Below, piece after piece: positions 3,859 to 36,946 of a DNA stretch of 46,448 nt. A program made the translations under genes and the position numbers. This stretch comes from Actinomycetes bacterium. Lineage in GTDB: Bacteria; Actinomycetota; Acidimicrobiia; Acidimicrobiales; JAKAOS01. Positions within the stretch are counted from its first letter, which is position 1. Every line of letters starts with the position of its first letter. The stretch is from assembly GCA_021795215.1 (NCBI GenBank), contig JAJYPS010000005.1, positions 1-46,448 of the forward strand, written 5' to 3'. The notes below the pieces were generated by a model. The model worked only from the letters and a program-made list of their open reading frames with translations, was not told the origin of the DNA and searched no databases.

Positions 3859-3961
3859 GCACAGATCGTATCGAACGGTCTCCTCCGAGAACACCGCGCA
3901 TTCTGGTCTCGAACGGCTGTCGAGGCCGCCGGCCGGCTGGTGGGCCTCGTAGACTGCCGGT

Positions 3962-4567
3962 GTGGGCGTGGCTAAGTACGCAGACGCCGAAAGGCCGATA
4001 GCCGCTCTCCTGACCCTTCCGAACGGAATCTCACTGGTGCGCCTGGGATGCGTTCCTCTCCTGGGATGGTTGCTGCTCGGAGGGGAGCCGATGCACGCGG
4101 CCCTTCTCCTGGGGCTCCTGGGAGCCACCGACTGGGTGGACGGGTACCTGGCTCGCCGGCTGGGGCAGGTGTCGATGGTGGGCAAGGTCCTCGATCCCGC
4201 CGCAGACCGGGCTCTGCTGGGAGTGGCGCTGATCGGGTCGCTCCTGACCGGCTACGTCCCCATGTGGCTGGGGGAGCTGATGCTGGCGAGAGAGAGCCTG
4301 GTGTCGGCGGGGACCGTCACGCTGGCGTTCGTGAGGGCGCCGCGGGTGGACGTGGTGTGGGAGGGGAAAGCCGGTACGTTTGCTCTGATGGTGGCGTTGC
4401 CCCTCTTCCTGGTCGCGCATTCTGCGGTGTCCTGGAGCCGGACGGCCGGGTCCCTGGCGTGGGTGGCAACGGCAGTGGGGCTGACCATGGGCTGGGCCGC
4501 CGTCGCGGCGTATATTCCGAGAGCGCTCCGATCGTTGGGGCAGGCACAGATCTGGAGGGGTCGATGA
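3962..4567 (+). CDS. CDP-alcohol phosphatidyltransferase (PgsA-like)
   Basis: An integral membrane enzyme of about 201 aa that joins a CDP-activated lipid to an alcohol. The family signature DG-x2-AR-x8-G-x3-D-x3-D is complete: DGYLARRLGQ, then GKVLDPAAD. Several hydrophobic helices follow. Substrate choice (glycerol-3-phosphate, inositol phosphate or another alcohol) cannot be read from the sequence. The GTG start lies about 103 bp from the divergent ccdA start. Its TGA overlaps the ATG of the nucleotidyltransferase fusion gene (ATGA), so the two are probably translationally coupled. That suggests work in envelope lipid or glycolipid synthesis. Confidence 0.85.
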   Translation: MGVAKYADAERPIAALLTLPNGISLVRLGCVPLLGWLLLGGEPMHAALLLGLLGATDWVDGYLARRLGQVSMVGKVLDPAADRALLGVALIGSLLTGYVPMWLGELMLARESLVSAGTVTLAFVRAPRVDVVWEGKAGTFALMVALPLFLVAHSAVSWSRTAGSLAWVATAVGLTMGWAAVAAYIPRALRSLGQAQIWRGR

Positions 4568-7099: not shown

Positions 7100-7480
7100 A
7101 TGAACGTGCCCGAAGGTCTCCGCTACACGTCTGATCACGAATGGAGCCGGATCGAGGACGGCAGGATACGAGTCGGCATCACCGACTACGCCCAGGACGC
7201 CCTCGGCGACGTGGTGTTCGTGCAACTGCCCAACGTGGGCGACAGCGTGGCCACATCGGCGGTCGTCGGAGAAGTCGAGTCCACGAAGTCCGTCTCGGAT
7301 CTCTATTCGCCTGTCGCCGGGGTGGTGGTGGAGGTCAACGCGAGCCTGGCGGACTCTCCGCAGCTGCTCAACGAGGACCCTTACGGAGAGGGTTGGGTCT
7401 GTGTCGTCGAGCCGTCCGATCCAGCCGAGGTGGAGGGCTTGCTCGACGCCGAGTCCTACCGTCAGCTGACTGCCGACTGA
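7100..7480 (+). CDS. gcvH: Glycine cleavage system H protein
   Basis: A lipoyl-carrier protein of about 126 aa. It shuttles the aminomethyl group between the P, T and L proteins of glycine cleavage. The lipoylated lysine is in VESTKSVSDLYSP, and the flanking strands (GITDYAQDALGDVVFVQLP, PYGEGWVCVVEP) match the family along the full length. ATG 7100 starts just before VPEGLRYTSDHEW; GTG 7091 is also in frame. No gcvP or gcvT is nearby. As in mycobacteria (Rv1826), the gene heads the garA-ftsR block, so its position is conserved rather than functional. Confidence 0.93.
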   Translation: MNVPEGLRYTSDHEWSRIEDGRIRVGITDYAQDALGDVVFVQLPNVGDSVATSAVVGEVESTKSVSDLYSPVAGVVVEVNASLADSPQLLNEDPYGEGWVCVVEPSDPAEVEGLLDAESYRQLTAD

Positions 7481-22358: not shown

Positions 22359-23099
22359 TCAATCCGCCAACGAAGCCAGCGTCGCCGGCCCCCGGACGAA
22401 ATTGTAAGGCGGCCACGGCCCTGTGCAGAACAGCCTGGCTCGTGGGGTCTCCAGGCGGCCCACCAGGTCCACGAAGGCCGCGGTGCCTCCCCTTTGCACC
22501 AGGTAGGCACCTACCAGTGCCCACCGGCCCTCCCCCAGGCGAGGCGGGGCGGCAGCGATCGAAGCGTCCCTCAGCCGCCGGTGAACAACGCTCGCCTGCC
22601 TGCGGATGTCCGCAGCAGTGGGGAGTGGCGCATCCGATGCGGCTGCCCCTCGTCCGGTCGCTGCCGAGACTTCGCTCCCGGAGGACGACGGCTGTCGCAC
22701 GTGGCGTCCCGGGACGAGCATCCTCACGCTCAGTTCCACGCTGCTCGAAATGTGCGCCAGGTCCTCGTACAGAGTGCCCGACGCCGCCTCGAGAGCGGAG
22801 GACGCGGCGGACGACGAGGCGAAACGTACTCCGTAGCGGAGCGGCACGGCGTCCGAAGCGCTGCTGACCGCTTCCACCAGCTGCTCGTGATGCCACAGCT
22901 GCTCCACCGACGGAGGGGAAGGCCCGGCTGCGACGGCTCCGGCCACTTCGGCCACTTCGGTGCCCAGGGCCGCCAGGCCCTTCGCGGTAACCCATTCGGG
23001 GGCCTTCGACGGGTAGGCGTGATCGTGCCGAAGCGACGACAGGGCCTCCTCGGCGGCCTTCATGCCCTGGAGCTCCAGCACAGCTGCCAAGTGGATCAA
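22359..23099 (-). CDS. Gas vesicle GvpF/GvpL-family protein
   Basis: A 246-aa assembly protein. The C-terminus carries the family signature GPWPPYNFV, and a central region (LRYGVRFASSSAASSALEAA) matches GvpF/L spacing. GvpF/L proteins bind nascent GvpA and take part in early vesicle assembly. It starts at ATG 23099, overlapping the stop of gvpS by 4 nt, with GAGGGG upstream. It is the last gene of the minus-strand arm, 99 bp before gltB. It is shorter and more diverged than the other two members of the family in the window. The paralog letter (F or L) is not certain. Confidence 0.82.
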   Translation of the reverse strand: MIHLAAVLELQGMKAAEEALSSLRHDHAYPSKAPEWVTAKGLAALGTEVAEVAGAVAAGPSPPSVEQLWHHEQLVEAVSSASDAVPLRYGVRFASSSAASSALEAASGTLYEDLAHISSSVELSVRMLVPGRHVRQPSSSGSEVSAATGRGAAASDAPLPTAADIRRQASVVHRRLRDASIAAAPPRLGEGRWALVGAYLVQRGGTAAFVDLVGRLETPRARLFCTGPWPPYNFVRGPATLASLAD

Positions 23100-23329
23100 G
23101 GCCCCTCTTCGCGCTCCACCAGCGTCTGCACCGACGAGAGAAGCAGCCGGAGGTCCAAGTAGAGCAGCTCCACGTCGGCCACCGACACGATCGCCTGGCC
23201 ACTCAGCACCACTCCCGTGTCGACCAGGCGGTCGATCAGGTCGACCAGGGTCAGCGCGTCCAGGCCGCCGGCCACGACCTGCGGTCGGTCCTGCTTGCCG
23301 GCGTGCGACGAGGACGAGGCTTCACTCAC
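23096..23329 (-). CDS. gvpS: Gas vesicle GvpS (GvpA-like minor protein)
   Basis: A 77-aa protein of the GvpA/J/M/S family. The conserved amphipathic core is VDLIDRLVDTGVVLSGQAIV, then VADVELLYLDLRLLLSSV. The N-terminus is short and hydrophilic. GvpS-type proteins are minor shell or tip components in Streptomyces-type clusters. The GTG at 23327-23329 overlaps the gvpL stop by 4 nt, and its own stop overlaps the next GvpF/L start. Order J-L-S is the same as in Streptomyces. Confidence 0.82.
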   Translation of the reverse strand: MSEASSSSHAGKQDRPQVVAGGLDALTLVDLIDRLVDTGVVLSGQAIVSVADVELLYLDLRLLLSSVQTLVEREEGP

Positions 23330-24819
23330 CGCCCGCCCCCGCCGGTATCCCCGGGCCGCTCCTCCGGCGCCACTGCGAAGTGGTAGGGGGGCCAGGGCCC
23401 CGTGCGTATCACGTCGCCGTCCTGCAGTTCGGGCCTGCGTCGCCACCGGTCGAGCACGTCCGCGAGGGGACCCGCACCTGTGGCCTCCACCAGGACAGCC
23501 GAGTTGAACACCATCCGCCCCCCGTCGGTGCTCGTAGCGGGGATTCGCCTCAGGGCGGAACAGCAGCACCTCAGCTCCTGCTCGAACGTCGCCAGGGCGG
23601 CGGTCAGGTCGCTCAGCCGCCCCCGACGTTCGCCGAGGCTGTGCTGCTTCGCCTCCAGATAGGACCGGCCGCTGCCGTTCGGGGTGCCTTCGGCCGGAAC
23701 CGAGGGGCCTCGCCGGCTCTCCGGGGCCTCCGGAGCCGGGTCCGACCTATCCGGCAGCACGACCTTCACTCCCCACTCCTGTCGGCCCCGCAGGTCTTCC
23801 AGCGAAGCGCGGATCTCGTCCCTGTTCTCCTGCAGGTAGAGCTCCAGCGACTCCACCCCGGTGAAGATGGTCCCGAAGCGCATGGGCAGCACCGGCCCGA
23901 CCTCGAACGCTGCCTTCACCATCGCGTCGTGAGCGGTTGCCGCCTTCGCCAGAAGCGACCCCGGGTCCACCGATGACGTCGTCCGCAGGCTCTCGGCCAG
24001 TTCGGCCATGCTGCCGGGCAACACCTCGGCCACTACGGCCGCTACATCCCCCACCGTCACCAGGCGCGCCCCCGCCGCGCCTTGGACCGGGGCCGCCTCG
24101 GAGATGCCCTTCTCCAGGAGAGCCTTCTCGGAAGGGCCGCTATCGGGAGCGAGCACGATGGCGTACGCGTAGAGCGCCGTCCGCCCGCTGGCGGGGCCGT
24201 CTTGCGCCCCCCGCCACCTCTCCGCGTTCGCGTCGGTTGGGCCGGTTGTGTCGGTTGGGCCGGTTGTGTCGGTTGGGGCGGTTGGGCCGGTTGGGTGGTC
24301 TGTGTCGGTTGGGTGGTCTGTGTCGGTTGGGTGGTCTGTGTCGGTTGGGACGGTTGTGTCGGTTGGGACGGTTGTGTCGGTTGGGACGGTTGGCAGGGCG
24401 GCCCCCCTCTCGACAGGGAACCGGGTGGTGTGGGGGGCGTCCAGCTCCCGTACCGCTTCCTCCGGCGTCACCTGTGCCGTCCGGGCCTCGGCTCGCCGGG
24501 AAGGATCACCGGACAGCTCGGCCAGCATCTGAGCGGTGGCCGCGTCCGCCAGGGCACGGGTCACGCGGGCTCTGGCCACTCGCAGCGCTTCCTCCACCAT
24601 GTCCCTGCCTTCGGATCGGACGAGGCGTGAAACGGCGGCGCAGACGACCGATTCCAGCCGGTGCCGTTCCTCGTCCCCGAACGTCTCCTCGTCCCCCCGG
24701 TGCCTTTCCTCGTCGCCGAACGGCTGCCGGTGCTCGCTGCGTTCCCGTCGTCCGAGCGGTGTCGGATCGGTCACCGGTCCACCGTCTCTCTCGTGGGCGT
24801 CACCGCCCCTCCCCGGCAT
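23326..24819 (-). CDS. gvpL: Gas vesicle GvpL-family protein with N-terminal extension
   Basis: About 497 aa, almost twice the usual length. Residues ~215-495 are a normal GvpF/L domain: ALYAYAIVLAP, HDAMVKAAFEVGPVLPMRFG, ending IRTGPWPPYHFAV. The first ~150 residues include a helical region (VVCAAVSRLVRSEGRDMVEE, ALRVARARVTRALADAATAQ) that I do not recognise. The two parts are joined by a 6-residue Pro-Thr-Asp repeat linker (PTDTTV, PTDTDH, PTDTTG). The frame is uninterrupted through the repeats, so this is a real extension. ATG 24819 and GTG 24774 are both possible starts. It lies between gvpJ and gvpS, the normal place for gvpL. Confidence 0.8.
   Translation of the reverse strand: MPGRGGDAHERDGGPVTDPTPLGRRERSEHRQPFGDEERHRGDEETFGDEERHRLESVVCAAVSRLVRSEGRDMVEEALRVARARVTRALADAATAQMLAELSGDPSRRAEARTAQVTPEEAVRELDAPHTTRFPVERGAALPTVPTDTTVPTDTTVPTDTDHPTDTDHPTDTDHPTGPTAPTDTTGPTDTTGPTDANAERWRGAQDGPASGRTALYAYAIVLAPDSGPSEKALLEKGISEAAPVQGAAGARLVTVGDVAAVVAEVLPGSMAELAESLRTTSSVDPGSLLAKAATAHDAMVKAAFEVGPVLPMRFGTIFTGVESLELYLQENRDEIRASLEDLRGRQEWGVKVVLPDRSDPAPEAPESRRGPSVPAEGTPNGSGRSYLEAKQHSLGERRGRLSDLTAALATFEQELRCCCSALRRIPATSTDGGRMVFNSAVLVEATGAGPLADVLDRWRRRPELQDGDVIRTGPWPPYHFAVAPEERPGDTGGGGR
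24231..24393 (-). repeat. 18-bp tandem repeats coding for a PTDT linker in gvpL
   Basis: About nine 18-bp units (with one shortened unit) based on GGTTGGGACGGTTGTGTC. They are in frame and encode the hexapeptide PTDTTV and its variants. Variants are locally grouped (three PTDTDH, two PTDTTV, two PTDTTG), as expected from slippage or unequal crossing-over. Unit number is likely to vary between strains. Confidence 0.8.
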
Positions 24820-25333
24820 CGTCGCCCAACCCATCTCGTGCGCCGTCGTTGCCCTCCCCGGAAGGCCCGAGGGCCGGCGATGCCTCCGGCCGGTTCGAGG
24901 CGACAAGGCTCTCGAGCAGGCCCTCCAGTCTGTCCATCCTCGACCGGAGGTCGTCCAGGCCGCCCTGTCCCAGGCCGGGAGCTTCACCGTCGCCCAGCTG
25001 GCCACTCCGGCCAACCTCCGGCCGATCCCCTGCTGTGCTCCGGTCGGACGAGGTGCCTCTCGCAGTCGAGGAGAGGAACGGATCGTCGGTCCACCAGTCG
25101 ATCCCCATCTCCTTGGCGGTGTCGGCGGAGGCGATCAGCAGCCGGATCTTGAGAGTCAGCAACTCGATGTCCAACAGCTTCACCACTACGTCACCTGCCA
25201 CTACGACGCCCTTGTCGAGCACCCTTTCCAGCAGGTCGGCCAAGGTGGACGGGGCCCCCGAGGAGGGCGCAGCCGGGGCTGCGTTGCGGCGATAGGGAGA
25301 GGGATAACCGCCAGGCCGATCGTCAGAACTCAT
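24800..25333 (-). CDS. gvpJ: Gas vesicle GvpJ (GvpA-family minor protein)
   Basis: A 177-aa protein. Residues ~25-85 hold the GvpA-family core: LADLLERVLDKGVVVAGDVV, LLDIELLTLKIRLLIASADT, and the GvpJ-specific MGIDWWTDDPFL. The ~90-residue C-terminal extension is hydrophilic, with a short coiled-coil segment (DLRSRMDRLEGLLESLV). In Streptomyces, GvpJ carries the same DWW motif. ATG 25333 overlaps the gvpO stop by 11 nt. Minor shell or tip protein of the vesicle. Confidence 0.88.
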   Translation of the reverse strand: MSSDDRPGGYPSPYRRNAAPAAPSSGAPSTLADLLERVLDKGVVVAGDVVVKLLDIELLTLKIRLLIASADTAKEMGIDWWTDDPFLSSTARGTSSDRSTAGDRPEVGRSGQLGDGEAPGLGQGGLDDLRSRMDRLEGLLESLVASNRPEASPALGPSGEGNDGARDGLGDDAGEGR

Positions 25334-25793
25334 CGGCCTGCCCCCGATGATAGCGGCGGATCCTCTCGTAGGACATGAGGTTTCCCTCTTCATCGAGCTC
25401 TGCGTCGTAGCTGCCCAGAAGGTTGGTCGACGCGGGGATGCGCTCCAGTTCCACCAGCTCCACGGTCAGGTGCCAACCGTCGTCCAGTCGCTCTATGGAC
25501 GTCACCGTGTCAGGCGACCTGCCTGTCAGCTCCACGAGCTGTTCGATCGCCCTGCGGGCCACTTCGACCGCGCCCACCCTCTTGCGCCGCTGCTCACCGT
25601 GGCCGCCCCCGTCACTGTCCCCGTCGCCGTCCCGAGTGTGCCGGTCGCCTTCCCCTTCCCCGCCTCGGGCACGAGAGTCGCCGTGCCGGTCGCCGTCCCG
25701 GTTGTGCCGGTCGCCTTCCCGGTGACCCTGCGACGGGTCCTTCCCGTCGCGATCGCTGCGTCGGTCGTGAGCCGTTTCCTCGCTCTGAGCCAT
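25323..25793 (-). CDS. gvpO: Gas vesicle protein GvpO
   Basis: A 156-aa protein. The C-terminal ~85 residues are the GvpO domain (VEVARRAIEQLVELTGRSPD, then SYERIRRYHRGQ). GvpO is essential in haloarchaea and is the first gene in Streptomyces clusters. The first ~65 residues are a low-complexity, charged tract rich in D, R, H and G with RDGDRH-type repeats, longer than usual. ATG 25793 has GGAGG at good spacing. It heads the minus arm and is divergent from gvpK. Confidence 0.88.
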   Translation of the reverse strand: MAQSEETAHDRRSDRDGKDPSQGHREGDRHNRDGDRHGDSRARGGEGEGDRHTRDGDGDSDGGGHGEQRRKRVGAVEVARRAIEQLVELTGRSPDTVTSIERLDDGWHLTVELVELERIPASTNLLGSYDAELDEEGNLMSYERIRRYHRGQADEF

Positions 25794-26013
25794 CCTGTCC
25801 TCCGTTCGGTACGGCGCCGCTCGCCTGGCAGTCTGCCTCGCTGGGATCGGTTTACTCAGTGGCGCCCCCGGAAACGGTTGCTACCACCCGGACAGTGACA
25901 GTTCCCGCAACTGCGGGTCGGCAATCAGGAACGTGACAGCGGCATCCTCCCGCGGCTGCAGAGGCCAGGACGGAAGCGACCTAGGGCATCGAACGACAAG
26001 GAAATTGGCCGAG
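25794..26013. promoter_or_regulatory. Divergent control region of the gas vesicle cluster
   Basis: These 220 bp separate the divergent gvpO and gvpK genes, so both arms must be controlled here. A CCCGCAACTGCGGG hairpin lies at 25904-25917, the only clear symmetry. GTTTAC at ~25848 and GGAAAC at ~25870 resemble SigB-like or ECF -35 elements, but no matching -10 could be confirmed. Its role as promoter is therefore inference from position. Confidence 0.5.
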
Positions 26014-26502
26014 TTGGACACGACGGATAGAACGACAGAAATTGCTGGCGGTCCCTCGGTGTCGCAGCGAGGCAAGGTTCTCTATGGCGATCCGGACGAT
26101 CTGCACGAAATGGGCCTGGTCGACCTGGGGCAGCTGATCGGCGAGGCGGATTTGGCAAGGCCGGCGCGCATCGATCTCTCGTCGCAGAACGTGGAACGGG
26201 GTCTCGCGCAGCTGGTGGTGGGCGTGGTGGAAGTGCTTCGCCAAGTGCTCGAGCGGCAGGCAGTACGCAGGATGGAGGCGGGCGCCCTGGACGAGGGACA
26301 GGTCGAACGCCTAGGCAACGCGCTCATGGCGTTGGAGGAGCGAGTGGGTGAACTGTGCGACGCTCTCGCCCGACCTTCGGATCCCGAGAGCGGCGGTTCG
26401 CCGCAGGATGGTCCGTCCGCGACGGACAGCGAGCTCTACATAGAAAAGCTGCGGGGCACGGTCGGAGTGGCCCAGCACGACAACCGCCAGGAGGCGAGCT
26501 GA
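26014..26502 (+). CDS. gvpK: Gas vesicle protein GvpK
   Basis: About 162 aa. The GvpK core is plain: [55 protein letters not shown]. The N-terminal ~50 residues ([20 protein letters not shown]) are an extension. GvpK is needed for vesicle assembly but its mechanism is not settled. TTG 26014 was chosen for its AAGGAAA at 25998-26004; GTG 26059 is an alternative that gives a protein closer to the family length. It starts the plus-strand arm and is followed one base later by gvpA. Confidence 0.82.
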
Positions 26503-26503
26503 T

Positions 26504-26953
26504 ATGGCAATGACACGATCCGCAATTTCCCGCAGTCAGCCTACGGGCCTTTACGACATCTTGGACCTTATCCTGGACAAGGGCCTCGTGATCGACGCCT
26601 TCGTCCGGGTTTCTGTGATCGGTATCGAGATACTGACGATAGATGCCCGGATCGTGGTGGCGAGCGTCGACACTTATCTGCGGTTCGCCGAGGCTGTCAA
26701 CAGGTTGGACCTGAACGAGGGGAAGAGCGGAGGGCTGCCTGACCTGGCCCAGAACATGACCGAGGGTGGGGCGCACGGAAAGACGAAGGGCGCCCTGTCG
26801 GGGGCCGCCGAGTCGATATCCGACACGCTGCGCGGCGGTGGGGGTCAGGGCGACGATCAGCCTGCTCCGCGCAAGCGGCCGCAGGGGAGCGGCGGCAATC
26901 GCCGTCCGGCGCGAGGCGACGGTGGAAGCCAGGGCGGCAGCAGTGACGAGTGA
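26504..26953 (+). CDS. gvpA: Gas vesicle structural protein GvpA
   Basis: A 149-aa member of the GvpA family. Residues ~14-70 have the hydrophobic rib core: [51 protein letters not shown]. It resembles the Streptomyces type, with a C-terminal tail containing [20 protein letters not shown] that ends in Gly/Arg-rich low complexity. It is therefore twice as long as cyanobacterial GvpA. ATG 26504 lies just after the gvpK stop, with AGGAGG 8 nt upstream. As the best GvpA match, it is the likely main shell protein. Confidence 0.88.
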
Positions 26954-27019
26954 CCGGCGGCACGGGGCCCGGCGAGCCATGCCCGGGCCTGATGTCGGGC
27001 CCTCGAATGGGTGTCGAGG

Positions 27020-28057
27020 ATGACTGCGAGAAGCGACGCAGCCCGTTCGTCCGACCCGTCTCGGCTGCGTAGCAGGCAGAATGCGGGCACGAGGGTCCGC
27101 AGGCGGGCTGGACGGCAACAGCAGCCTGCCTCCTCGGAGCCGCCCTCCGGCCACTTGGAGCAGCTATCCGGCCGATCAGCATCGGCTCTCATGCCTCTGG
27201 CCGTAGTCCACAAGTCGGGGAGCGACAGCCAACTGCCCGAGTTCCCGTACGAGGGCAGCAAGTGGCCTGTCCGGGGCCTCTGCGAAGGTGACCTCTGCAT
27301 GATCGTGGCAGAAGTACCTTCCGACGTGGTCGATCCGCTGTTCGCGCTTCCCGAGCAGCCGACCACCGCCCGGGTCTCCGAAACCGCGGCGTTGGCGGCG
27401 CAGTCGGCGACGGCCGACGCCGATGCTCGGCCGGGCGACTTGGGTCGTCGCCGTCTCGAACTGGCTTTCGCCGAGTTCCTGGTGAGGATCAACGGGCAGC
27501 ACGACGCACTGCTGCCGATGACTTTCGGGATGCTGGCCGACGAAGGGGAGTTGCGGGCTGAGGTCGCATCCGACGCGGCGGTCCTGGGCGACCTCCTGGC
27601 CCGGTTCGAAGCGAAGGACGAGGTGGTCGTGTCGGCTACAGCCGACATGCAGGGATGCCTGGCAGCAGTCGTTGCAGCGGAGCCGAAGCTGAAGTCGCTG
27701 GCCGCTAGAGCAGACGTTGCGCAGGGCCTGCGCCGCCAGCAGATGCAGATGTCGGTGGGGGAGTCGGCCAGTCAAGGCCTGGCCGGCCTGCTGGACCGCG
27801 ATGCCGCGCTCGTCCAGGCCCGGTTGTCTCCTCTCTCCGCAGACCATGCCCAGCTGTATGTCGCTCCGGCGACTCGTTTCGAAGCCCAGTTCGTCGCCTT
27901 CAGGCACTCCTTCCTGGTTCCCCGGAAGAACCTCGACCAGTTCAACGCCGCTGTGGTCGAACTGGGGCGCTCCTTGGAGGGCAGGGCAACGCTGGCCACC
28001 AGCGAACCCATTCCGCCGTTCAGCTACATGCCGGCAAAAGTTGGCGGCCGGTCTTGA
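27020..28057 (+). CDS. gvpF: Gas vesicle GvpF-family protein
   Basis: About 345 aa. The GvpF/L fold is recognisable from ~60 onward: MPLAVVHKSGSD, LAFAEFLVRINGQHDALLPM, TFGMLADEGELRAEV, and a C-terminal IPPFSYMPA in place of the usual PWPPYHF. The first ~55 residues are basic and without family similarity, so the true start may be later (ATG 27191). ATG 27020 and GTG 27011 are the early options. It follows gvpA, the Streptomyces A-F order. Sequence is more diverged than the GvpL protein on the minus arm. Confidence 0.82.
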   Translation: MTARSDAARSSDPSRLRSRQNAGTRVRRRAGRQQQPASSEPPSGHLEQLSGRSASALMPLAVVHKSGSDSQLPEFPYEGSKWPVRGLCEGDLCMIVAEVPSDVVDPLFALPEQPTTARVSETAALAAQSATADADARPGDLGRRRLELAFAEFLVRINGQHDALLPMTFGMLADEGELRAEVASDAAVLGDLLARFEAKDEVVVSATADMQGCLAAVVAAEPKLKSLAARADVAQGLRRQQMQMSVGESASQGLAGLLDRDAALVQARLSPLSADHAQLYVAPATRFEAQFVAFRHSFLVPRKNLDQFNAAVVELGRSLEGRATLATSEPIPPFSYMPAKVGGRS

Positions 28058-28270: not shown

Positions 28271-28984
28271 GTGAAGAAGGGTTTCGAGTTGGGCGCCGGT
28301 GTAGCCACCGGTTACTTCCTCGGCCGGACCAGGAAGCTGAAGCTGGCGCTCGGTATTGCGAGCTGGGTGGCCGGCAAGAAGCTCGGTGTCACGCCGAAAG
28401 AAGCGGTGATGGGACTGGGCAAACGGGTCGTCGAATCGGCGGAGGTGAAACAGGCGCTGGAAGAGCTGGGCGGCGATGCCCGCTCTGCCGCCAAGGATGC
28501 GGTATCGGCAGCGGTGGGCGCCAAGATGGGAAGCCTCGCTCAACGTGTCCATCAGCGCACCGAGAAGTTGCGAACCTCCGGCGACGGAGCCGGAGGAGAC
28601 CAAACCGGGACGGACGAGGCTGGCCAGGACGAACCTGAGCAAGAGGAAGCTGGTGGAGGCCAAGCTTCCTCGGGTAAGGGTTCCGGGCAGCAGGAACGCA
28701 AAGGATCTGGGTCCCCGAGGCCCCGGGACGGCGGTGCCACGCAGGATCGGCGTCACAAGGCTCCGGCTCGGCAAGGGACGGCCAAGAAGCCCGCATCTGC
28801 ACAGTCACCCGGAAAAGCTCCGTCGTCGCAGACGAAGGGAAGGCCGGGAGGCCGGCCTTCCGGCGGTAGCCAGGGAGCCGGCGCCTCTCAAGGAGCCAAC
28901 ACGCCGCGGAAGCGGCCCACCCGTTCCGGCACAGCATCGAAGAGTGGCAACAGAGCTACGGGAAGCAACGGCGAGGGCGCATGA
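28271..28984 (+). CDS. gvpY: GvpY-like gas vesicle accessory protein
   Basis: A 237-aa protein. The N-terminus (LGAGVATGYFLGRTRKLKLA, LGIASWVAGKKLG) matches the GvpY-type protein of Streptomyces clusters, often misnamed DNA primase. Residues ~45-95 are helical (DARSAAKDAVSAAVGAKMGS). The rest is disordered: first a short acidic stretch (DEPEQEEAGG), then about 100 residues with roughly 20 Lys/Arg against 4 Asp/Glu. GTG 28271 follows GGAGG. It overlaps gvpZ by 4 nt. Between gvpF and gvpY, where Streptomyces has gvpG, 213 bp hold no recognisable gene. Confidence 0.72.
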   Translation: MKKGFELGAGVATGYFLGRTRKLKLALGIASWVAGKKLGVTPKEAVMGLGKRVVESAEVKQALEELGGDARSAAKDAVSAAVGAKMGSLAQRVHQRTEKLRTSGDGAGGDQTGTDEAGQDEPEQEEAGGGQASSGKGSGQQERKGSGSPRPRDGGATQDRRHKAPARQGTAKKPASAQSPGKAPSSQTKGRPGGRPSGGSQGAGASQGANTPRKRPTRSGTASKSGNRATGSNGEGA

Positions 28985-30324
28985 GCGACGACCAGGAAGA
29001 CTCGATGGCGGAAGACGAAGTCGAGGAAAACGATCGGCAGGAAGGTTCCGGAGGGAGCGGGAACGGGTCGGGATTGGCAGAGGAGCTGGAGCATTACCTT
29101 TCGGCTCAACTGGCCAGGGGAGTGCGCAGCTTGGCAGGCGGCCTCTCCGGTGCCACGCATTCGCTGTCGGCCGGGGGAGGTTCCGAGGGCAACGACGGAG
29201 GCGGTCTCCTTGCCGGAGTCGCCGGCAAGATCGCCGGGGGCGCCTCACCGGTCAAGGCGGCCGCATCCGCTGGTTTCGAAGGTCTCAAGCAGAAGGTCCC
29301 CGGCTTGGGCAGGACGAAAGACTCCGACGGCGGACAAAGCCAGTCGAAGATCGTCAACATCGTCGAGGACATCGACGTGGGCGTGCCCATCGACGTCGCG
29401 TACAACCAGTGGACGCAGTTCGAGCAGTTCAGCGGCTTCGCCAAGGGCGTGGACGAAGCCGAGCAGGAAGACGACACGACGGTGCGCTGGAAGGGCCATG
29501 TCGGGCCGGTTCGCCGTACTTGGACCGCCAAGATCACCGAGCAGGTCCCGGAGCGACGCATCGCGTGGAACGCTCAGGGAACGAAGGGGACAGTCGAAGG
29601 TGTCGTGACGTTCCACGAGCTGGCGGAGGACTTGACTCGGGTCCTGCTGGTCCTGGAGTACCACCCGAAAGGCATCGTCGAAGGTCTGGGCAACCTGTGG
29701 CGCGCTCAAGGAAGGCGGGCGCGCCTGGACCTCAAGAGTTTTCGCCGCTTCGTCATGATGAGAGGCGACAGCACCGGCGAATGGCGAGGCGAGGTCCACG
29801 ACGGAGAAGTCGGCGAGTCCCCCGGCGGGGAAGCGCGGGACGACTCTGGCGACGAGGAGGACACGGGCGGGTCCGGTTCCGTCGAGGACGGGGACGACTA
29901 CGACGAGGAGGACACCGGCACCGAGGACCCCGGGGATGACGAGGACTCCGTAGACGGGGACGACGTGGACTCCGGAGACGACGAAGATGCCGACTACGAG
30001 GGTGAGGACGCAGACAGCCAGGACGCAGACGAACAGGAGGATGACGACGCCGACCTCGACGAGCAGGAGGATGACGGGGAGCCCGACGAAGAGGCCGACG
30101 CCGACTTCGAAGACGGAGAAGGCGACCAGTCCGAAGGTGGACAGCTCGAGCCGGTAGACGACGACGCCGACAACGACGAGGAGGACGACGCGGAGGCGGA
30201 GGACGTATCCGAGGACGAAGCAGACGAGCCGGACGACCTGGACGAGGTAGACGACGAGGACGAGGTAGACGACGAGGAGGCAGAGGACCCGGACGAGGAG
30301 GAAGACGCCGCCGAGACCAAGTAG
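28981..30324 (+). CDS. gvpZ: GvpZ-like SRPBCC protein with a long acidic tail
   Basis: A 447-aa protein. Residues ~30-110 are helical and Gly-rich. Residues ~122-262 are an SRPBCC/polyketide-cyclase-like helix-grip domain (VGVPIDVAYNQWTQFEQFSG, WTAKITEQVPERRIAW, VTFHELAEDLTRVLLVLEYH), as in the Streptomyces gvp cluster. Residues ~265-447 are a disordered tail that is mostly Asp and Glu (EDTGTEDPGDDEDSVDGDD type). It starts inside the gvpY stop (ATGA). The function is unknown; the tail charge is opposite to that of GvpY. It ends the plus arm, followed by a strong terminator. Confidence 0.78.
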   Translation: MSDDQEDSMAEDEVEENDRQEGSGGSGNGSGLAEELEHYLSAQLARGVRSLAGGLSGATHSLSAGGGSEGNDGGGLLAGVAGKIAGGASPVKAAASAGFEGLKQKVPGLGRTKDSDGGQSQSKIVNIVEDIDVGVPIDVAYNQWTQFEQFSGFAKGVDEAEQEDDTTVRWKGHVGPVRRTWTAKITEQVPERRIAWNAQGTKGTVEGVVTFHELAEDLTRVLLVLEYHPKGIVEGLGNLWRAQGRRARLDLKSFRRFVMMRGDSTGEWRGEVHDGEVGESPGGEARDDSGDEEDTGGSGSVEDGDDYDEEDTGTEDPGDDEDSVDGDDVDSGDDEDADYEGEDADSQDADEQEDDDADLDEQEDDGEPDEEADADFEDGEGDQSEGGQLEPVDDDADNDEEDDAEAEDVSEDEADEPDDLDEVDDEDEVDDEEAEDPDEEEDAAETK

Positions 30325-30436: not shown

Positions 30437-31420
30437 TCAGGCGTGCACGTCAACAACCACCCGGCCTCTGATCTGCCCGGCCAGCATCTGCTCCGCAAGA
30501 GCCGGAAGGCGGCTCATGGGCTCGATCCGTGTGATGTCGTCGAGGTTGTGGAGGGGAAGGGCGGACGCGATCAGCCCCCAGGCCTCGGCCCGAGCAGAGG
30601 AGGGACGCCTCACGGAGTCGATCCCGAGCAGAGAGACGTTGCGGAGGATGAACGGCAACATCGTCGCCGGAAGTCGTGTGCCGCCGGCAAGGCCGCATGC
30701 GGCCACTGCACCGCCGTACGCGATACGGGCGAGAAGGTTCGCCAGGGTCGGGCCGCCTACGGAATCGACCGCTCCGGCCCACCGTTCGGGGCCCAGAGCC
30801 GTCTGCTGTCCGCCGGCAAGCTCTTTCCGGTCGACGACTTCGGATGCGCCCAGCGCCGCCAAGTATTGGTATGAGTCGGCTTTGCCCGTCGACGCAGTGA
30901 CCGGATAGCCGCTGGCGGAGAGAAGAGCGACGGCGACGCTGCCCACTCCGCCCGTGGCTCCCGTGACCGCTACATCGGCCCCGCTCGACAATCCCGCCTT
31001 TTGCAGCGCCAGAACGCAGAGCGCCGCAGTCAGCCCGGCCGTACCCACCGCCATCGTCTGGCTCAGGCTCATGGACGACGGCTTTTCCATCAGCCATTCC
31101 GACCGGAGCCTCTGCACCGTCGTGTACCCGCCGGGGTGGGTCTCGGACAGTCCCCAGCCGGTGACCACCACCTCGTCGCCCGGGCACCACCGGGGGTGTT
31201 GGGATGCGGTGACGGTGCCGGCCAGGTCGATCCCGCAAACCATCGGATAACGGCGAGCGATCCTCGCCCGCCCCGTGACGGCCAGAGCGTCTTTGTAGTT
31301 GAGCGACGAGTACGACACGTCGACCGTCACGTCGCCTTCGGGCAGATCCCCCTCGGACAGATCGGCTACAACGGCCGGACGGTCGTGACCGGTGGTGACG
31401 ACAGCAGGGAAGTTGCCCAT
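30437..31420 (-). CDS. YhdH/AcuI-type quinone or acrylyl-CoA reductase
   Basis: A 327-aa medium-chain dehydrogenase/reductase. The domain order is typical: catalytic part with YSSLNYKDALAVTG and CGIDLAGTV, then the NADPH loop VTGATGGVGSVAVALLSASG and, further on, IDSVRR. The zinc-binding cysteines of alcohol dehydrogenases are absent, as in this branch. Characterised members reduce acrylyl-CoA (AcuI) or act on quinones (YhdH); which applies here cannot be told. ATG 31420 was chosen because it begins MGNFPAVV. It is divergent from the orphan kdpA gene, 252 bp apart. Confidence 0.85.
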   Translation of the reverse strand: MGNFPAVVTTGHDRPAVVADLSEGDLPEGDVTVDVSYSSLNYKDALAVTGRARIARRYPMVCGIDLAGTVTASQHPRWCPGDEVVVTGWGLSETHPGGYTTVQRLRSEWLMEKPSSMSLSQTMAVGTAGLTAALCVLALQKAGLSSGADVAVTGATGGVGSVAVALLSASGYPVTASTGKADSYQYLAALGASEVVDRKELAGGQQTALGPERWAGAVDSVGGPTLANLLARIAYGGAVAACGLAGGTRLPATMLPFILRNVSLLGIDSVRRPSSARAEAWGLIASALPLHNLDDITRIEPMSRLPALAEQMLAGQIRGRVVVDVHA

Positions 31421-31672: not shown

Positions 31673-33361
31673 GTGTCGTTCGGCTTGACACTGGTTGCGC
31701 TGTTCCTGGCCCTCGCCGTCGCCTGGCGGTTTCTCGGCGCCTATATGGTGGCCGTGCTGGACGGTCGGGTCCACTGGCTGGCGTTCGTCGAGCGGCCGCT
31801 GTATCGCCTCCTGAAGGTCGACCCCGAGTCGGAACAGAGCTGGCAGCAGTACTCCGTGAGCCTTTTGCTGTTCTCGGGCGTATCGATCCTCGTCACTTAC
31901 GGGTTGCTCAGGCTGCAGGGGCTCCTTCCGTTCAACCCGCAGCGCTTGCCTGCAGTGAGCCCCGCGCTGGCGTGGAACACTTCAGTGGCTTTCGCCACGA
32001 ACACCGACTGGCAGAACTACGTGGGCGAGCAGACGATGTCGTACTTCTCGCAGATGGCCAACCTCGCGGTCCAGAACTTCTTCAGCCCTGCCGTGGCAAT
32101 TGCGGTGGCTGTCGCGCTGATCCGCGGCTTCGCCCGGAAGGGTTCGCCCACCATAGGGAACTTCTGGCTGGACATGATCCGCAGCATCCTGTACCTGTTG
32201 CTGCCGATCTCGTTCGTGATGGCCCTGGTCTTCGTCGGGGAAGGGGGGGTCCAGACGCTCGGCGGGCCGGCCCACGTGCACGACGTGCTCAGCGGAGCCG
32301 CTCAGACGATCCCTCGTGGTCCTGTCGCTTCCCAGGAGGCCATAAAGCAGTTGGGCACCAATGGCGGAGGCTTCTTCAACGCCAACAGCGCGCATCCGTT
32401 CGAGAACCCGACCGGGCTCACCAACTGGCTGACGCTAGTGCTCTTCCTGTCGATCCCGGTCGCACTGACGTATGTGTTCGGCAAGATGGTGGGCAGCCTA
32501 CGGCAAGGGGTGGCGGTGCTGGCTGCCATGGTTTTCTTCTTCGGTACTTGGACGGCGTTCACCACGGCAGCCGAGAAGGGGCCGAACCCCGCCGTGGCCG
32601 CGGCGGGTGTCCTCCAACCGCGGGGAAACACGGTCGGCAAGGAGGCTCGCTTCGGCGTCTCCTCGTCCGCTCTGTTCGGCGTTGCCGCTACGCAGACGTC
32701 GGACGGCTCGGCCAACTCCGCCTACGACTCCTTCACGCCAGTAGGGGGCCTGGGACTGATGACCGGCATGATGCTGGGGGAGGTCTCGCCCGGCGGCGTC
32801 GGCAGCGGCATATACACCATGCTGCTGTACGCGATAGTGGCGGTTTTCGTGGGCGGCCTCATGGTCGGGCGAACTCCGGAGTACCTGGGAAAGAAGATCG
32901 GTGCCAAGGAGGTGAAGCTGGCCGCGATTGCGATCCTCGTCGCCCCGATCACCGTGCTGGTGCTCTCCGGCATAGCCGTGTCGGTCCACGCCGGAAAGGT
33001 GGCACCGCTCAACTCTGGCCCGCACGGGTTCTCGGAGATCCTCTACGCGTTCACTTCCCAGGCGGAGACCAACGGGTCGGCGTTCGCCGGTCTGACGGGG
33101 AACACTCCCTTCTACAACATCACCGGGGGGATAGCGATACTCCTCGGCAGGTACGCCGTGATCGTCCCGGTACTGGCGCTGGCCGGCACGCTGGCGGCCA
33201 AGGGTATCGTGCCCGCCAGCGCCGGTACGGTCCGCACCGACACACCCATGTTCGTCGGACTGCTGATAGCCGTCGTGCTGATAGTCGGTGGCCTGACGTT
33301 CTTCCCGGCCGTGTCATTGGGGCCGGTGGTGGAGGCCCTCAGTCATGGCAAGTTGTACTGA
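31673..33361 (+). CDS. kdpA: KdpA paralog, orphan copy with altered pore-loop residues
   Basis: A full-length 562-aa homolog of the potassium-binding subunit of KdpFABC, about as long as the second copy and very similar to it. It retains [19 protein letters not shown] and [11 protein letters not shown]. It differs in the first loop (TNTDWQ, with Asp112 for the normal Asn) and the fourth loop (AETNGSAFAG, with Glu465-Thr466 for NN). No kdpF, kdpB or kdpC follows it; the next gene is on the other strand. GTG 31673 has GAGGAGGACC upstream. It could form a hybrid complex with KdpB/KdpC or act alone; neither is known. Confidence 0.93.
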   Translation: MSFGLTLVALFLALAVAWRFLGAYMVAVLDGRVHWLAFVERPLYRLLKVDPESEQSWQQYSVSLLLFSGVSILVTYGLLRLQGLLPFNPQRLPAVSPALAWNTSVAFATNTDWQNYVGEQTMSYFSQMANLAVQNFFSPAVAIAVAVALIRGFARKGSPTIGNFWLDMIRSILYLLLPISFVMALVFVGEGGVQTLGGPAHVHDVLSGAAQTIPRGPVASQEAIKQLGTNGGGFFNANSAHPFENPTGLTNWLTLVLFLSIPVALTYVFGKMVGSLRQGVAVLAAMVFFFGTWTAFTTAAEKGPNPAVAAAGVLQPRGNTVGKEARFGVSSSALFGVAATQTSDGSANSAYDSFTPVGGLGLMTGMMLGEVSPGGVGSGIYTMLLYAIVAVFVGGLMVGRTPEYLGKKIGAKEVKLAAIAILVAPITVLVLSGIAVSVHAGKVAPLNSGPHGFSEILYAFTSQAETNGSAFAGLTGNTPFYNITGGIAILLGRYAVIVPVLALAGTLAAKGIVPASAGTVRTDTPMFVGLLIAVVLIVGGLTFFPAVSLGPVVEALSHGKLY

Positions 33362-33461: not shown

Positions 33462-33785
33462 TCAGAGCTGCTCGAGAAGGGCCTCGTCCGCGCCCAGTTC
33501 GGTGAGCACCCGGACCAGGTCCGACTTTCTCATCAGCGTCTCGTAGTCGTCGTCTCTCCGCACCGTCGGCACGTTGCTGACTCCCAGCGAGTCGGCTCGT
33601 TCCCGGCCCTTCGCAGTGCCGAGGTTGCACATCTGCAGGGTTATCAGTCCGGCGTGCTCCAGCTTCCGCAGACCGTTGACCGCCTCCTGACAGCCGCTGC
33701 AGATCGGGTGGGTGAACAGCTCCACCACCCTCGGCTGGCAACCGCCGGTCGTCCCGCCCTCTTCGACCTGGCTCGTCTGCGTCAT
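33462..33785 (-). CDS. Thioredoxin-fold protein with CSGC motif
   Basis: A 107-aa protein. Residues ~18-80 have a glutaredoxin/thioredoxin-like fold with the dithiol Cys29-Ser-Gly-Cys32 (FTHPICSGCQEAV) and a cis-proline loop (VSNVPTV). An extra cysteine (Cys16) lies just before. It has the form of a small redox partner or a chaperone-like thiol protein. It is on the minus strand, directly downstream of the lipoyl carrier and thioredoxin genes, so the three genes run in the same direction. Confident on fold, not on partner. Confidence 0.75.
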   Translation of the reverse strand: MTQTSQVEEGGTTGGCQPRVVELFTHPICSGCQEAVNGLRKLEHAGLITLQMCNLGTAKGRERADSLGVSNVPTVRRDDDYETLMRKSDLVRVLTELGADEALLEQL

Positions 33786-33792
33786 GCCGCCA

Positions 33793-33828
33793 CCTTTCTG
33801 GCTCCCCGGACCTTTCTGGCTCCCCGGA
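33793..33828. repeat. Perfect 18-bp tandem duplication
   Basis: CCTTTCTGGCTCCCCGGA occurs twice without a gap, at 33793-33810 and 33811-33828. It lies just before the start of the CSGC protein gene and contains its candidate ribosome-binding region (AGAAAGG on the minus strand). Confidence 0.7.
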
Positions 33829-33882
33829 CCCTGGTGCTCCGGCCGGGGCCGTGTCCGGATCGCCGGCCAGACCCGCTCCTGC

Positions 33883-34449
33883 TCAAAGGTCGTCCCAGTC
33901 GTTGCAGTGGACGCACCAGAAGTCGTCGTTCACTCCCGCCACCGAGCGGAACGTGCGTCCGATCCGCTCCCGGTAGGCGTCCTGAGCCTCCTTGCCGGAC
34001 AGCCACGGGACGGCGGACTCCGGTCGGAACGCCACCACCCATCCTCGCCCGTACGGCTCCAGGTTCACCCAGAGGGGATGGGGTACCAGGTCGGCGTTCA
34101 CCTCGACCAGCTCGGCATCCACAGGCAGCCGGATCGGCCCCACCCACTTGGCGCTCTCCAGAAGAGCTACCGTCTTGCCTGCCGCCACCCGCTTTCCCAG
34201 CCTCTGCTCCGACCGGGGAAAGGAGATCGCCTGGAGCTTTCCCCCCGCTGTCTGCCCCACGTCCGTCAGGCCGACGCGCACCACTCCCGACTCCTCCACC
34301 CTCGCCCACAAGTCGTGCTCCACGTCGTACATCAGGTTCGTCGGCAGCACGCAGTTCTTGAACACCCAGGGTTGGTCGGCCGGGGACCCGGAGGAGTCCG
34401 GCCGACCGTTCGTTTCCTCGCCCCCCTCGTTTGCCGCTGGTTCGCCCAC
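33883..34449 (-). CDS. GcvH-like lipoyl-carrier protein, non-glycine-cleavage type
   Basis: About 188 aa. Residues ~28-145 follow the GcvH fold (YDVEHDLWARVEESGVVRVG, LTDVGQTAGGKLQAISFP). The lipoylation lysine is kept in LLESAKWVGPIRLPVDAELV, but the surrounding residues differ from true GcvH. The C-terminus adds ~45 residues ending FWCVHCNDWDDL, with a CVHC pair. It resembles the lipoate-binding proteins of the sulfur-oxidising sHdr systems only in general form; no hdr genes are nearby. GTG 34449 has GGGAGG at about 5 nt. It lies between two thioredoxin-fold genes. Confidence 0.75.
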   Translation of the reverse strand: MGEPAANEGGEETNGRPDSSGSPADQPWVFKNCVLPTNLMYDVEHDLWARVEESGVVRVGLTDVGQTAGGKLQAISFPRSEQRLGKRVAAGKTVALLESAKWVGPIRLPVDAELVEVNADLVPHPLWVNLEPYGRGWVVAFRPESAVPWLSGKEAQDAYRERIGRTFRSVAGVNDDFWCVHCNDWDDL

Positions 34450-34532
34450 GCCAACCTCCCAATATCCGCTGCTCCGTAGAGTAACCGCGGCGGGTCGTCC
34501 CGGCGTGGTTCTCCTTCGTGTGGCCCAATCGG

Positions 34533-34964
34533 TCAAGAGCCCAGCTTCGACTGGACCCACCTCGCCAGGGTCGCTTCGGGCAGAGCACCGACTTGACGAT
34601 CCGTCACTCTGCCGCCGTCCAGCAGCAGCAGGGTCGGTATCCCCTGGACTCCGAAGCGAGCGCTCAGGGCGGGGGCCTGGTCCACGTTCACCTTGACCAC
34701 CTTCAACCTGCCGGCGAACTGGCCGGCCATCTTCTGTACCGCCGGCGACAGGACGCGGCAGGGCCCGCACCATGGTGCCCAGAGGTCGACCAGCACCGGC
34801 ACGGGTGACTTCGCCGTGATCTCGTCGAAGTCGGCCTCGGTCGCGTCGACGGACCACGGGAGCCATGCCTGGCATCGCCCGCACCGGGGCTTGCCGCCCG
34901 CGGTGGTGGGCACACGGTTGCGTCCCCCGCACTCCTGACACGTCAGTACCGAAAAGGAGCCCAC
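34533..34964 (-). CDS. Thioredoxin-2-type protein with zinc ribbon
   Basis: A 143-aa thioredoxin. The N-terminal ~35 residues have two CxxC pairs (CQECGG, CGRCQAW) as in TrxC-type thioredoxin 2. The thioredoxin domain has WAPWCGPCRVL, and the cis-proline is in GIPTLLLL. It reduces disulfides in cytoplasmic proteins; the zinc ribbon is thought to tune redox sensing. GTG 34964 begins VGSFSVLTCQEC. It is the first gene of a three-gene minus-strand group followed by the lipoyl carrier and CSGC protein. Confidence 0.9.
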   Translation of the reverse strand: MGSFSVLTCQECGGRNRVPTTAGGKPRCGRCQAWLPWSVDATEADFDEITAKSPVPVLVDLWAPWCGPCRVLSPAVQKMAGQFAGRLKVVKVNVDQAPALSARFGVQGIPTLLLLDGGRVTDRQVGALPEATLARWVQSKLGS

Positions 34965-35172: not shown

Positions 35173-35258
35173 CAATCAACGACGTCGTCCTGCTGGCCCT
35201 CTCGGTCGCCATGATGGGCTATCTGGGCTTCGCCCTCATACGGCCGGAGAAGCTGTAG
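35169..35258 (+). CDS. kdpF: KdpF small stabilising subunit
   Basis: A 29-aa peptide (VTINDVVLLALSVAMMGYLG, ending FALIRPEKL). The single helix and the PEK(L/F) end are typical of KdpF, which stabilises the KdpABC complex in the membrane. The GTG at 35169 overlaps the 27-aa peptide's stop; its TAG overlaps the kdpA2 GTG by one base. Too short for most gene finders. Confidence 0.85.
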   Translation: MTINDVVLLALSVAMMGYLGFALIRPEKL

Positions 35259-36946
35259 TGGCCTACGCGCTCACCATCGTGGCCCTCGTCGTGGCGCTCG
35301 GCTTGACGTGGCGCTTCCTCGGGGCCTACATGGTCGCCGTTCTCGAAGGTCGTATGCGCTGGCTGGGCTTCATCGAGAAGCCCCTCTACCGGCTGCTCGG
35401 CATCGAGCCCGACGCGGAGCAGAGCTGGCAGCGGTACTCCATAAGCCTGCTGGTCTTCTCGGGGGTCTCCATCCTGGTGACCTACGCGATCATGCGCCTG
35501 CAGCAGTTCCTTCCGCTGAACCCCCAGCACATGGGGGCCGTCACGCCGGCATTGGCCTGGAACACCGCCGTGTCGTTCGTGACCAACACCAACTGGCAGA
35601 ACTACCTGGGCGAGCAGACCATGTCCTACTTCACCCAGATGAACGCTCTTGTCGTCCAGATGTTCATCAGTCCCGCAGTAGGTATCGCCGTGGCGGTGGC
35701 CCTCATCCGCGGGTTCGCGCGCAAGGGCTCGCCCACCATCGGAAACTTCTGGCTGGACCTCATCCGTAGCACGCTGTACGTCCTGCTGCCCATCTCGTTC
35801 GTCTTCGCGCTGATATTCGTCGGCCAGGGTGCGCTGCAGACCTTGGGCGGACCGGTCCACGTCCACAATGCCCTCAACGGCACGACTCAGACCATCCCCC
35901 GGGGGCCGGTGGCGTCCCAGGAGGCGATCAAGCAGTTCGGCACCAACGGAGGCGGCTTCTTCAACGCCAACAGCGCCCACCCCTTCGAGAGCCCCACCGG
36001 GCTGACCAACTTCCTGTCGATCTTCCTTTTGCTCTCGATCCCCGTGACACTGACCTATGTGTTCGGCAAGATGGTGGGCAGCGTGCGCCAGGGAGTGGCG
36101 GTGCTCGCGGCGATGATCTTCTTCTTCGGCGTCTGGACGACGTACACCACCGTCGCCGAGAAGGGGCCGAACCCCGCGGTGGCGGCGGCAGGCGTCGCCC
36201 AGCCTCGCGGGAACACAGTCGGAAAGGAAGCGCGTTTCGGCGTGTCCTCGTCAGCACTATTTGGAGTGTCGGCAACCCAGACCTCCACCGGGGCAGCAAA
36301 CTCTGCTTACGACTCCTACACCCCGGTAGGGGGGATGGGACTGCTGACCGGCATGATGCTCGGTGAGGTATCGCCGGGCGGCGTGGGCAGCGGCATGTAC
36401 ACCATCCTGCTGTTCGCTATCGTGACCGTTTTCATCGGCGGACTGATGGTCGGACGAACGCCCGAGTATCTGGGAAAGAAGATTCAGGCCAGGGAGGTGA
36501 AGCTGGCCGGGATCGGCGTGCTGGTGATGCCGGTCACCGTCCTGGTGCTGTCGGGGATAGCGGTATCGGTTCACGCCGGCCAGGCGGGGCCGCTCAATGC
36601 CGGGCCACACGGGTTCTCCGAGATCCTCTACGCGTACACATCTATGAGCAACAACAACGGCTCGGCGTTTGCGGGATTGACCGGCGACACGCCCTTCTAC
36701 AACATCACCGGCGGAATAGCGATGCTGCTCGGCCGGTTCGCCATCATGGTCCCGGTCCTGGCACTCGCCGGCACGCTGGCAGCCAAAGGCGTCGTCCCCG
36801 CCACGGCCGGTACGGTCCGCACCGACACGCCTCTGTTCGTAGGCCTCCTGATCGGCGTCGTGCTGATCGTCGGCGGCCTCACATTCTTCCCGGCCGTATC
36901 CCTCGGACCGGTCGTGGAAGCCCTTACTCACGGGAGGTTGTACTGA
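35258..36946 (+). CDS. kdpA: KdpA potassium-binding subunit (operon copy)
   Basis: A 562-aa integral membrane subunit with about ten helices and four pore loops. All loop motifs are canonical: TNTNWQNY (Asn112), LGTNGGGF-type ([21 protein letters not shown]), [11 protein letters not shown] and [10 protein letters not shown]. It starts with GTG overlapping the kdpF stop and ends overlapping kdpB by one base (TGATG). This is the likely functional copy of the KdpFABC complex for high-affinity K+ uptake. The orphan paralog lies 3.6 kb upstream. Confidence 0.96.

Follow-up and report, generated by a model that had tools for sequence, protein, structure and literature searches.

What task could a lipoyl carrier have outside glycine cleavage, when its gene lies between genes for two dithiol proteins and the same DNA carries a separate gcvH? 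This question is raised by a stretch of 46,448 bp from an Actinomycetes bacterium (contig JAJYPS010000005.1), hereafter the window, in which three minus-strand genes are enclosed by two copies of kdpA. The original prediction, made from the sequence alone, had interpreted the three genes as a single thiol-transfer cassette, with the lipoyl dithiol as shuttle and the thioredoxins as reductant and recipient, and had singled out the duplicated kdpA as part of its context. The coordinates confirmed that the three genes lie on the same strand between the two kdpA copies, both of which scored above the TIGR00680 cut-off and encode proteins that are 80% identical; kdpB and kdpC, named by eye, occur downstream of copy 2 only. 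The features relevant to our analysis are the following:

7100-7480, plus strand: true gcvH (TIGR00527, 156.9 bits; cut-off 115.85)
31673-33361, plus strand: kdpA copy 1 (TIGR00680, 670.5 bits)
33462-33785, minus strand: small CSGC protein of 107 amino acids with a predicted thioredoxin fold (AlphaFold pLDDT 90.1)
33786-33882, minus strand: 97-bp spacer between LbpX and the CSGC gene, with a short tandem duplication containing GGTCCGGGGAGCCAGAAA twice
33883-34449, minus strand: LbpX, predicted GcvH-like lipoyl carrier of the LbpA kind (PF01597, 84.8 bits)
34533-34964, minus strand: Trx2/TrxC-type thioredoxin (TIGR01068, 107.2 bits; cut-off 96.8)
35258-36946, plus strand: kdpA copy 2 (TIGR00680, 688.2 bits)

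The most upstream of the three genes, separated from LbpX by 83 bp, encodes a thioredoxin of the expected type with a WCGPC motif, although the zinc ribbon that had been claimed for it, visible as the N-terminal pairs CQEC and CGRC, matched PF21352 weakly (18.8 bits; cut-off 27.1); its score against NF008229 (110.9 bits) was under the cut-off of 125. LbpX (188 amino acids) starts with a GTG codon preceded by GGAGG and contains the lysine expected for lipoylation in the motif ESAKWVG (codon 34147-34149), an N-terminal cysteine inside KNCVLP and the C-terminal end DDFWCVHCNDWDDL; the extra CVHC noted in the original prediction is encoded at 33904-33915. The gcvH at 7.1 kb, correctly recognised as the genuine one and used here as a control, shares with LbpX the PF01597 domain and the position of the lysine (motif ESTKSVS) but has none of its cysteines, being entirely devoid of this residue. 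The frame at 4048-7089 corresponds to a nucleotidyltransferase/phosphomutase and not to gcvP. A promoter scan of the region found none, and the two terminator-like sites detected lie on the opposite strand, a count near chance expectation.

Within the GcvH family, to which LbpX belongs, the LbpA proteins of the sHdr sulfur-oxidation system carry two conserved cysteines, one close to the N-terminus and one close to the C-terminus, that GcvH lacks (Cao et al. 2018, eLife, PMC6067878). Likewise, these extra cysteines were absent from the GcvH proteins that we compared and present in the LbpA ones. Among the neighbour proteins, LbpA1 ends with a single cysteine (e.g., GISC) and LbpA2 with a CxxC (e.g., IRCFRC), and the ligase-linked LbpA0 has, as GcvH, no C-terminal cysteine. 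In all eight genomes where we found LbpX (see below), we saw no substitution of the lysine, of the cysteine near the N-terminus or of either tail cysteine of FWCxHC (the cysteines being C10, C156 and C159 in alignment A6), and invariant columns make up 12 of the 22 positions at the C-terminal end versus 35 of the 144 elsewhere. Against the gcvH equivalog model, LbpX of the window scored 56.5 bits, and the seven members scanned (all except that of G002) ranged from 43.5 to 59.9 bits, all below the cut-off of 115.85. A phylogenetic tree of 55 of 58 rows (rows shorter than 120 amino acids and one fused double-ORF row of L056 were dropped), in which the LbpA rows are actinobacterial only, recovered separate clades for LbpX (support 99/92), LbpA1 (96/86), LbpA2 (96/93), LbpA0 (100/100) and GcvH (19 rows, 100/100); the branching order of LbpX, LbpA1, LbpA2 and GcvH is unsettled in this tree (91/65, drawn open). 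We thus rejected the identification of LbpX as a GcvH, by both the equivalog cut-off and its exclusion from the GcvH clade, and also as LbpA1 or LbpA2 proper, since it falls outside both of these clades in one of its own. Judged by its sequence, LbpX is an LbpA-kind lipoate-binding GcvH-like protein, a new variant of this kind of lipoyl carrier and the off-cluster fourth member in the genome of the window, which agrees with the earlier claim of a lipoyl carrier acting outside glycine cleavage.

A lipoyl carrier with a redox task outside glycine cleavage has also been described in the SirTM/macrodomain operons (GcvH-L; Mol Cell 2015, PMC4518038), and LbpX might by this similarity be regarded as a GcvH-L-type target of a SirTM/Zn-macrodomain oxidative-stress system. 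We find this scarcely conceivable, because LbpX has the cysteines of LbpA and its KWVG motif, and by eye we recognised no sirtuin or macrodomain genes among the called genes of the eight loci. The same KWVG context surrounds the lipoyl lysine of the actinobacterial LbpA1 and LbpA2 proteins compared here. As for LbpA2 from Group III shdr clusters of actinobacteria, the one in the window's own genome (L021:16337-16819) combines ESAKWVG with IRCFRC. It differs in that it is 33% identical to LbpX over the alignment, the tail of LbpX is longer and rich in tryptophan and aspartate, and we saw no thioredoxin gene beside LbpA2. The actinobacterial LbpA2 proteins end in CxxC variants (CFRC, CYRC, CMRC) in 12 rows, a class that is defined by the CxxC itself. 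Their C-terminal dithiol thus comes in addition to the lipoyl dithiol; the available sections of PMC6067878 speak of one C-terminal cysteine.

The partner of LbpX is less easily recognised, as no family in Pfam or NCBIfam matched the CSGC protein above cut-off, with scores of 12.6 bits against PF00085 (cut-off 23.5) and 21.5 bits against TIGR00411 (cut-off 92.75). In its predicted structure, the first helix begins at residue 30, and C29 and C32 form a CxxC at the helix start (CSGC encoded at 33690-33701); VPTV, encoded at 33561-33572, presumably provides, by analogy, the cis-proline position. Structure comparisons retrieved thioredoxins, NrdH and other thioredoxin-fold proteins with similar Z scores of about 9–10 (e.g., thioredoxin 1v98: Z 10.3, rmsd 2.3, 80 residues). 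In the profile search, where the top row was an engineered protein (4rzp), the best natural sequence match was 1fo5 (E 7.8e-6), which we take to be an MJ0307-type thioredoxin. With MJ0307-type and other small archaeal thioredoxins and with NrdH/glutaredoxin-like proteins the CSGC protein shares the fold and a CxxC where helix 1 begins, but it differs from them by its low TIGR00411 score and by a signature of its own, VELFTHPxCxGCQxA, which is invariant except at the x positions in all eight genomes (we therefore call the group CxGC proteins). We are confident, on the basis of the model, that it adopts a thioredoxin fold, in line with the dithiol thioredoxin-fold protein of the original prediction.

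Do the three genes form a unit? A scan for the tail patterns in one genome per species across 84,980 species yielded seven loci which, with the window's own, make eight genomes; two of them (G002 and G038) had already come from a search of 59 relatives, and two pairs of identical assemblies recognised by the position of the gene pair (G103 = G399 and G279 = G400) were each counted once. In all eight, LbpX and the CxGC gene are adjacent on the same strand with the CxGC gene second, and in six they overlap, by 4 nt in G002, G038, L033, L036 and L034 (taking the ATG at 8447 in L034) and by 1 nt in L032, with spacers of 96 bp in L030 and 97 bp in the window. The recurrence of this arrangement in the same order is more than chance would explain, and the LbpX clade spans at least four families (f1, f9, f33 and f37). 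By contrast, none of the other seven loci had a Trx2 (phmmer with the window's protein, ORFs of at least 70 codons). We consequently rejected the three-gene cassette as a unit: the conserved unit consists of two genes. The refuting outcome named in the original prediction, a lack of joint recurrence in related genomes, thus applies to the set of three (0/7) but not to the two-gene core.

The gene pair is real, conserved and rare. Among 397 genomes of the order, LbpX matched five with 276–302 bits (next best, 106 bits) and the CSGC protein matched the same five; together with the constant adjacency, this means that neither gene was found alone, although the wide scan depended on the tail patterns. 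Among 395 genomes of the class the window was the sole match of the CSGC protein, and among the relatives of G401 (1/121) and G398 (1/118) only the query genomes matched. The LbpX and CSGC protein distances were not significantly correlated across the eight genomes (rho 0.23, p 0.21), so that co-divergence is unsupported beyond shared presence. These data also bear on a reading of LbpX as a plain duplicate of LbpA2 with no task of its own, and of its neighbour as a hitch-hiker. The ESAKWVG motif and C-terminal CxxC (CFRC) of the LbpA2 in the same genome are what such a duplicate would show, but the constant neighbour in 8/8 genomes largely refutes this reading, as do the well-supported clade in several families and the near-invariant tail, and we regard it as highly improbable.

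The duplicated kdpA beside the pair looks incidental. A kdp neighbourhood (kdpE, kdpD and kdpA on one contig, named by eye) is shared only with G002, a member of the same family, and we recognised by eye no kdp genes among the called genes of L023, L030, L032, L033, L034 and L036, so that a functional tie to kdp was rejected and the duplication lost the significance initially attached to it. At two loci in genomes of different families, the pair adjoins genes for HTH regulators that are distant relatives (L023:179-817 and L033:2401-3063; 22% identity, E 1e-16); they have in common a C-terminal CPFxD...ICxLH and could be cysteine- or cluster-based sensors. Elsewhere in the window, positions 22359-28057 hold a gas-vesicle cluster in two divergent blocks (by Pfam, three GvpL/F, three Gas_vesicle proteins of the GvpA/J type, GvpO and GvpK), a find not expected alongside a sulfur-oxidation locus. 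Next to it, 28981-30324 encodes a protein of the SRPBCC type (PF03364, 63.2 bits) whose C-terminal half is very long and rich in Asp and Glu, and a member of the acrylyl-CoA reductase family (30437-31420, minus strand; TIGR02823, 398 bits) adjoins kdpA copy 1.

LbpA proteins are essential for sulfur oxidation by sHdr, are lipoylated by their own ligase together with LipS1/LipS2, and have been proposed to carry sulfur or electrons (PMC6067878, PMC10332631). Searching the window's genome with LbpX, we found five GcvH-like places: LbpX itself, the true gcvH and three on another contig (C8, locus L021), within an ordered and full sHdr locus that encodes:

TusA (identified by eye in a single frame)
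DsrE-like protein (PF02635)
HdrC1, HdrB1 and HdrA-like proteins (NCBIfam Hdr models)
second HdrC/B-like protein
two LplA-like ligases (PF21948)
LipS1 (NF053742, 223.6 bits; cut-off 230)
LipS2 (NF053743, 183.4 bits; cut-off 270)
EtfB- and EtfA-like proteins (named by eye)
three LbpA-like proteins
DsrE2 (NF047629, 102.7 bits; cut-off 210)
ArsR-like regulator (named by eye)

Several of these proteins scored below the curated cut-offs; the organism is nevertheless likely a sulfur oxidiser using sHdr. The lipoate ligase that the original prediction proposed to look for is thus encoded in this genome, as two LplA-like genes accompanied by LipS1/LipS2; it had hinted at sLpl(AB) without naming the sulfur-oxidation system.

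Like LbpA, LbpX occurs in sHdr genomes with sLpl, LipS1 and LipS2. sHdrB1 is present in seven of the eight LbpX genomes versus 24 of the 397 of the order, and within this order sample LbpX was found in 4/24 genomes with sHdrB1 versus 1/373 without it (Fisher 5e-5, uncorrected for kinship). It is absent from the other 20 of these 24 sHdr genomes, which implies that LbpX is accessory and not needed for sHdr. A comparison of LbpX and HdrB1 distances, based on six of the seven sHdr genomes with LbpX (G038 left out), was marginal (41/720 permutations), and one genome with sHdrB1 (G397) had no LipS1 match at E 1e-20. Unlike LbpA, LbpX has its constant thioredoxin-fold partner and mostly lies outside the shdr cluster: the pair is beside it in one genome of the eight (L032/L077) and elsewhere in six genomes with shdr. 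At L032 the pair is divergent from the shdr operon (TusA, DsrE, HdrC1...), with one small gene in between; in G401 a similar small gene adjoins TusA (by eye) and the pair is on another contig. The small cysteine-rich protein adjoining TusA of the shdr operon in these two actinobacterial genomes (L032:7347-7781 and L076:2977-3369) starts with MTISDL and, at L032, shows a weak double zinc-ribbon match (20 bits, below cut-off).

The one LbpX genome without detected sHdr (G399, locus L033) had matches to none of sHdrB1, LbpA1, LbpA2, LbpA0 and LipS1, and its GcvH-like proteins are LbpX and GcvH only. Together with the off-cluster position of the pair in 7/8 genomes, it would fit an sHdr-independent lipoyl-thioredoxin couple serving general redox defence, which would be enriched in sHdr genomes simply because these possess the LbpA-specific lipoylation enzymes. 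However, this genome is 74% complete, making one missing locus plausible, and the strong enrichment in the other seven genomes and in the order sample argues against such independence, which we consider quite unlikely. The constant adjacency of the pair in some sulfur-oxidising actinobacteria suggests a dedicated thiol-exchange pair for sHdr.

We therefore favour, as the probable role of LbpX, that of an extra off-cluster LbpA-kind carrier serving sHdr with a dedicated small thioredoxin-like partner. LbpX would be lipoylated on the lysine of ESAKWVG by the sHdr-linked sLpl ligase and LipS1/LipS2, and its lipoyl dithiol and CVHC tail would, as inferred from LbpA, accept reducing equivalents or sulfane sulfur from sHdr. 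The CxGC partner, presumably translated right after LbpX, might then engage either the lipoyl arm or the CVHC tail by exchange of a disulfide or persulfide, which would reset LbpX and tie it to the thioredoxin pool of the cell. In its most specific form this becomes a private relay running from sHdr to the LbpX lipoyl dithiol, then to the CVHC tail, the CxGC partner and the thioredoxin pool, which we propose tentatively, as a doubtful but possible route. The structural model of LbpX has a good lipoyl domain and an undefined CVHC tail (pLDDT under 50), so that contact with the partner is unsupported by the model geometry. The Trx2 of the window may act as a general reductant, though not as a conserved part of the system. 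Far from the pair, the window also encodes a CcdA/DsbD-like transmembrane thiol-electron carrier (3103-3894; PF02683, 51.8 bits), possibly a further part of the thiol traffic; in G002 a comparable gene, recognised by eye, lies upstream of gcvH.

The main rival explanation is persulfide removal. The CxGC protein would reductively remove sulfane sulfur from over-loaded LbpX, with release of sulfide, or, in a variant, sulfur would be stripped from the LbpA proteins via LbpX, the pair being a safety valve outside the energy-yielding route. An accessory task of this type fits the optional presence of the pair, in 4 of 24 sHdr genomes, and has a parallel in Staphylococcus aureus, where TrxP/TrxQ reduce protein persulfides (PMC6196236); the ArsR/IclR-type HTH genes adjoining the pair in two of the eight loci also speak in its favour. 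Nonetheless, the lipoyl lysine of LbpX is strictly conserved, so that the carrier function seems to be kept, and on balance we hold clean-up to be rather unlikely. Overall, the original prediction is partly supported: its chemistry was right in outline and its borders were too wide.

To our search of the literature, which covered papers readable without subscription, an LbpA with a thioredoxin partner had no description. If the relay from sHdr to the CxGC partner is true, sulfane sulfur or electrons of an energy-yielding sulfur oxidation would reach the thioredoxin pool, through a lipoyl-thioredoxin couple without precedent in that literature. The role of lipoate in sHdr turns on whether the cargo of LbpA is sulfur, electrons or both and on what re-oxidises or reduces it, and the available text of PMC6067878 states as unexplained why organisms keep several LbpA proteins. 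LbpX and its one small partner would offer a two-protein system suited to testing thiol exchange by a lipoyl carrier.
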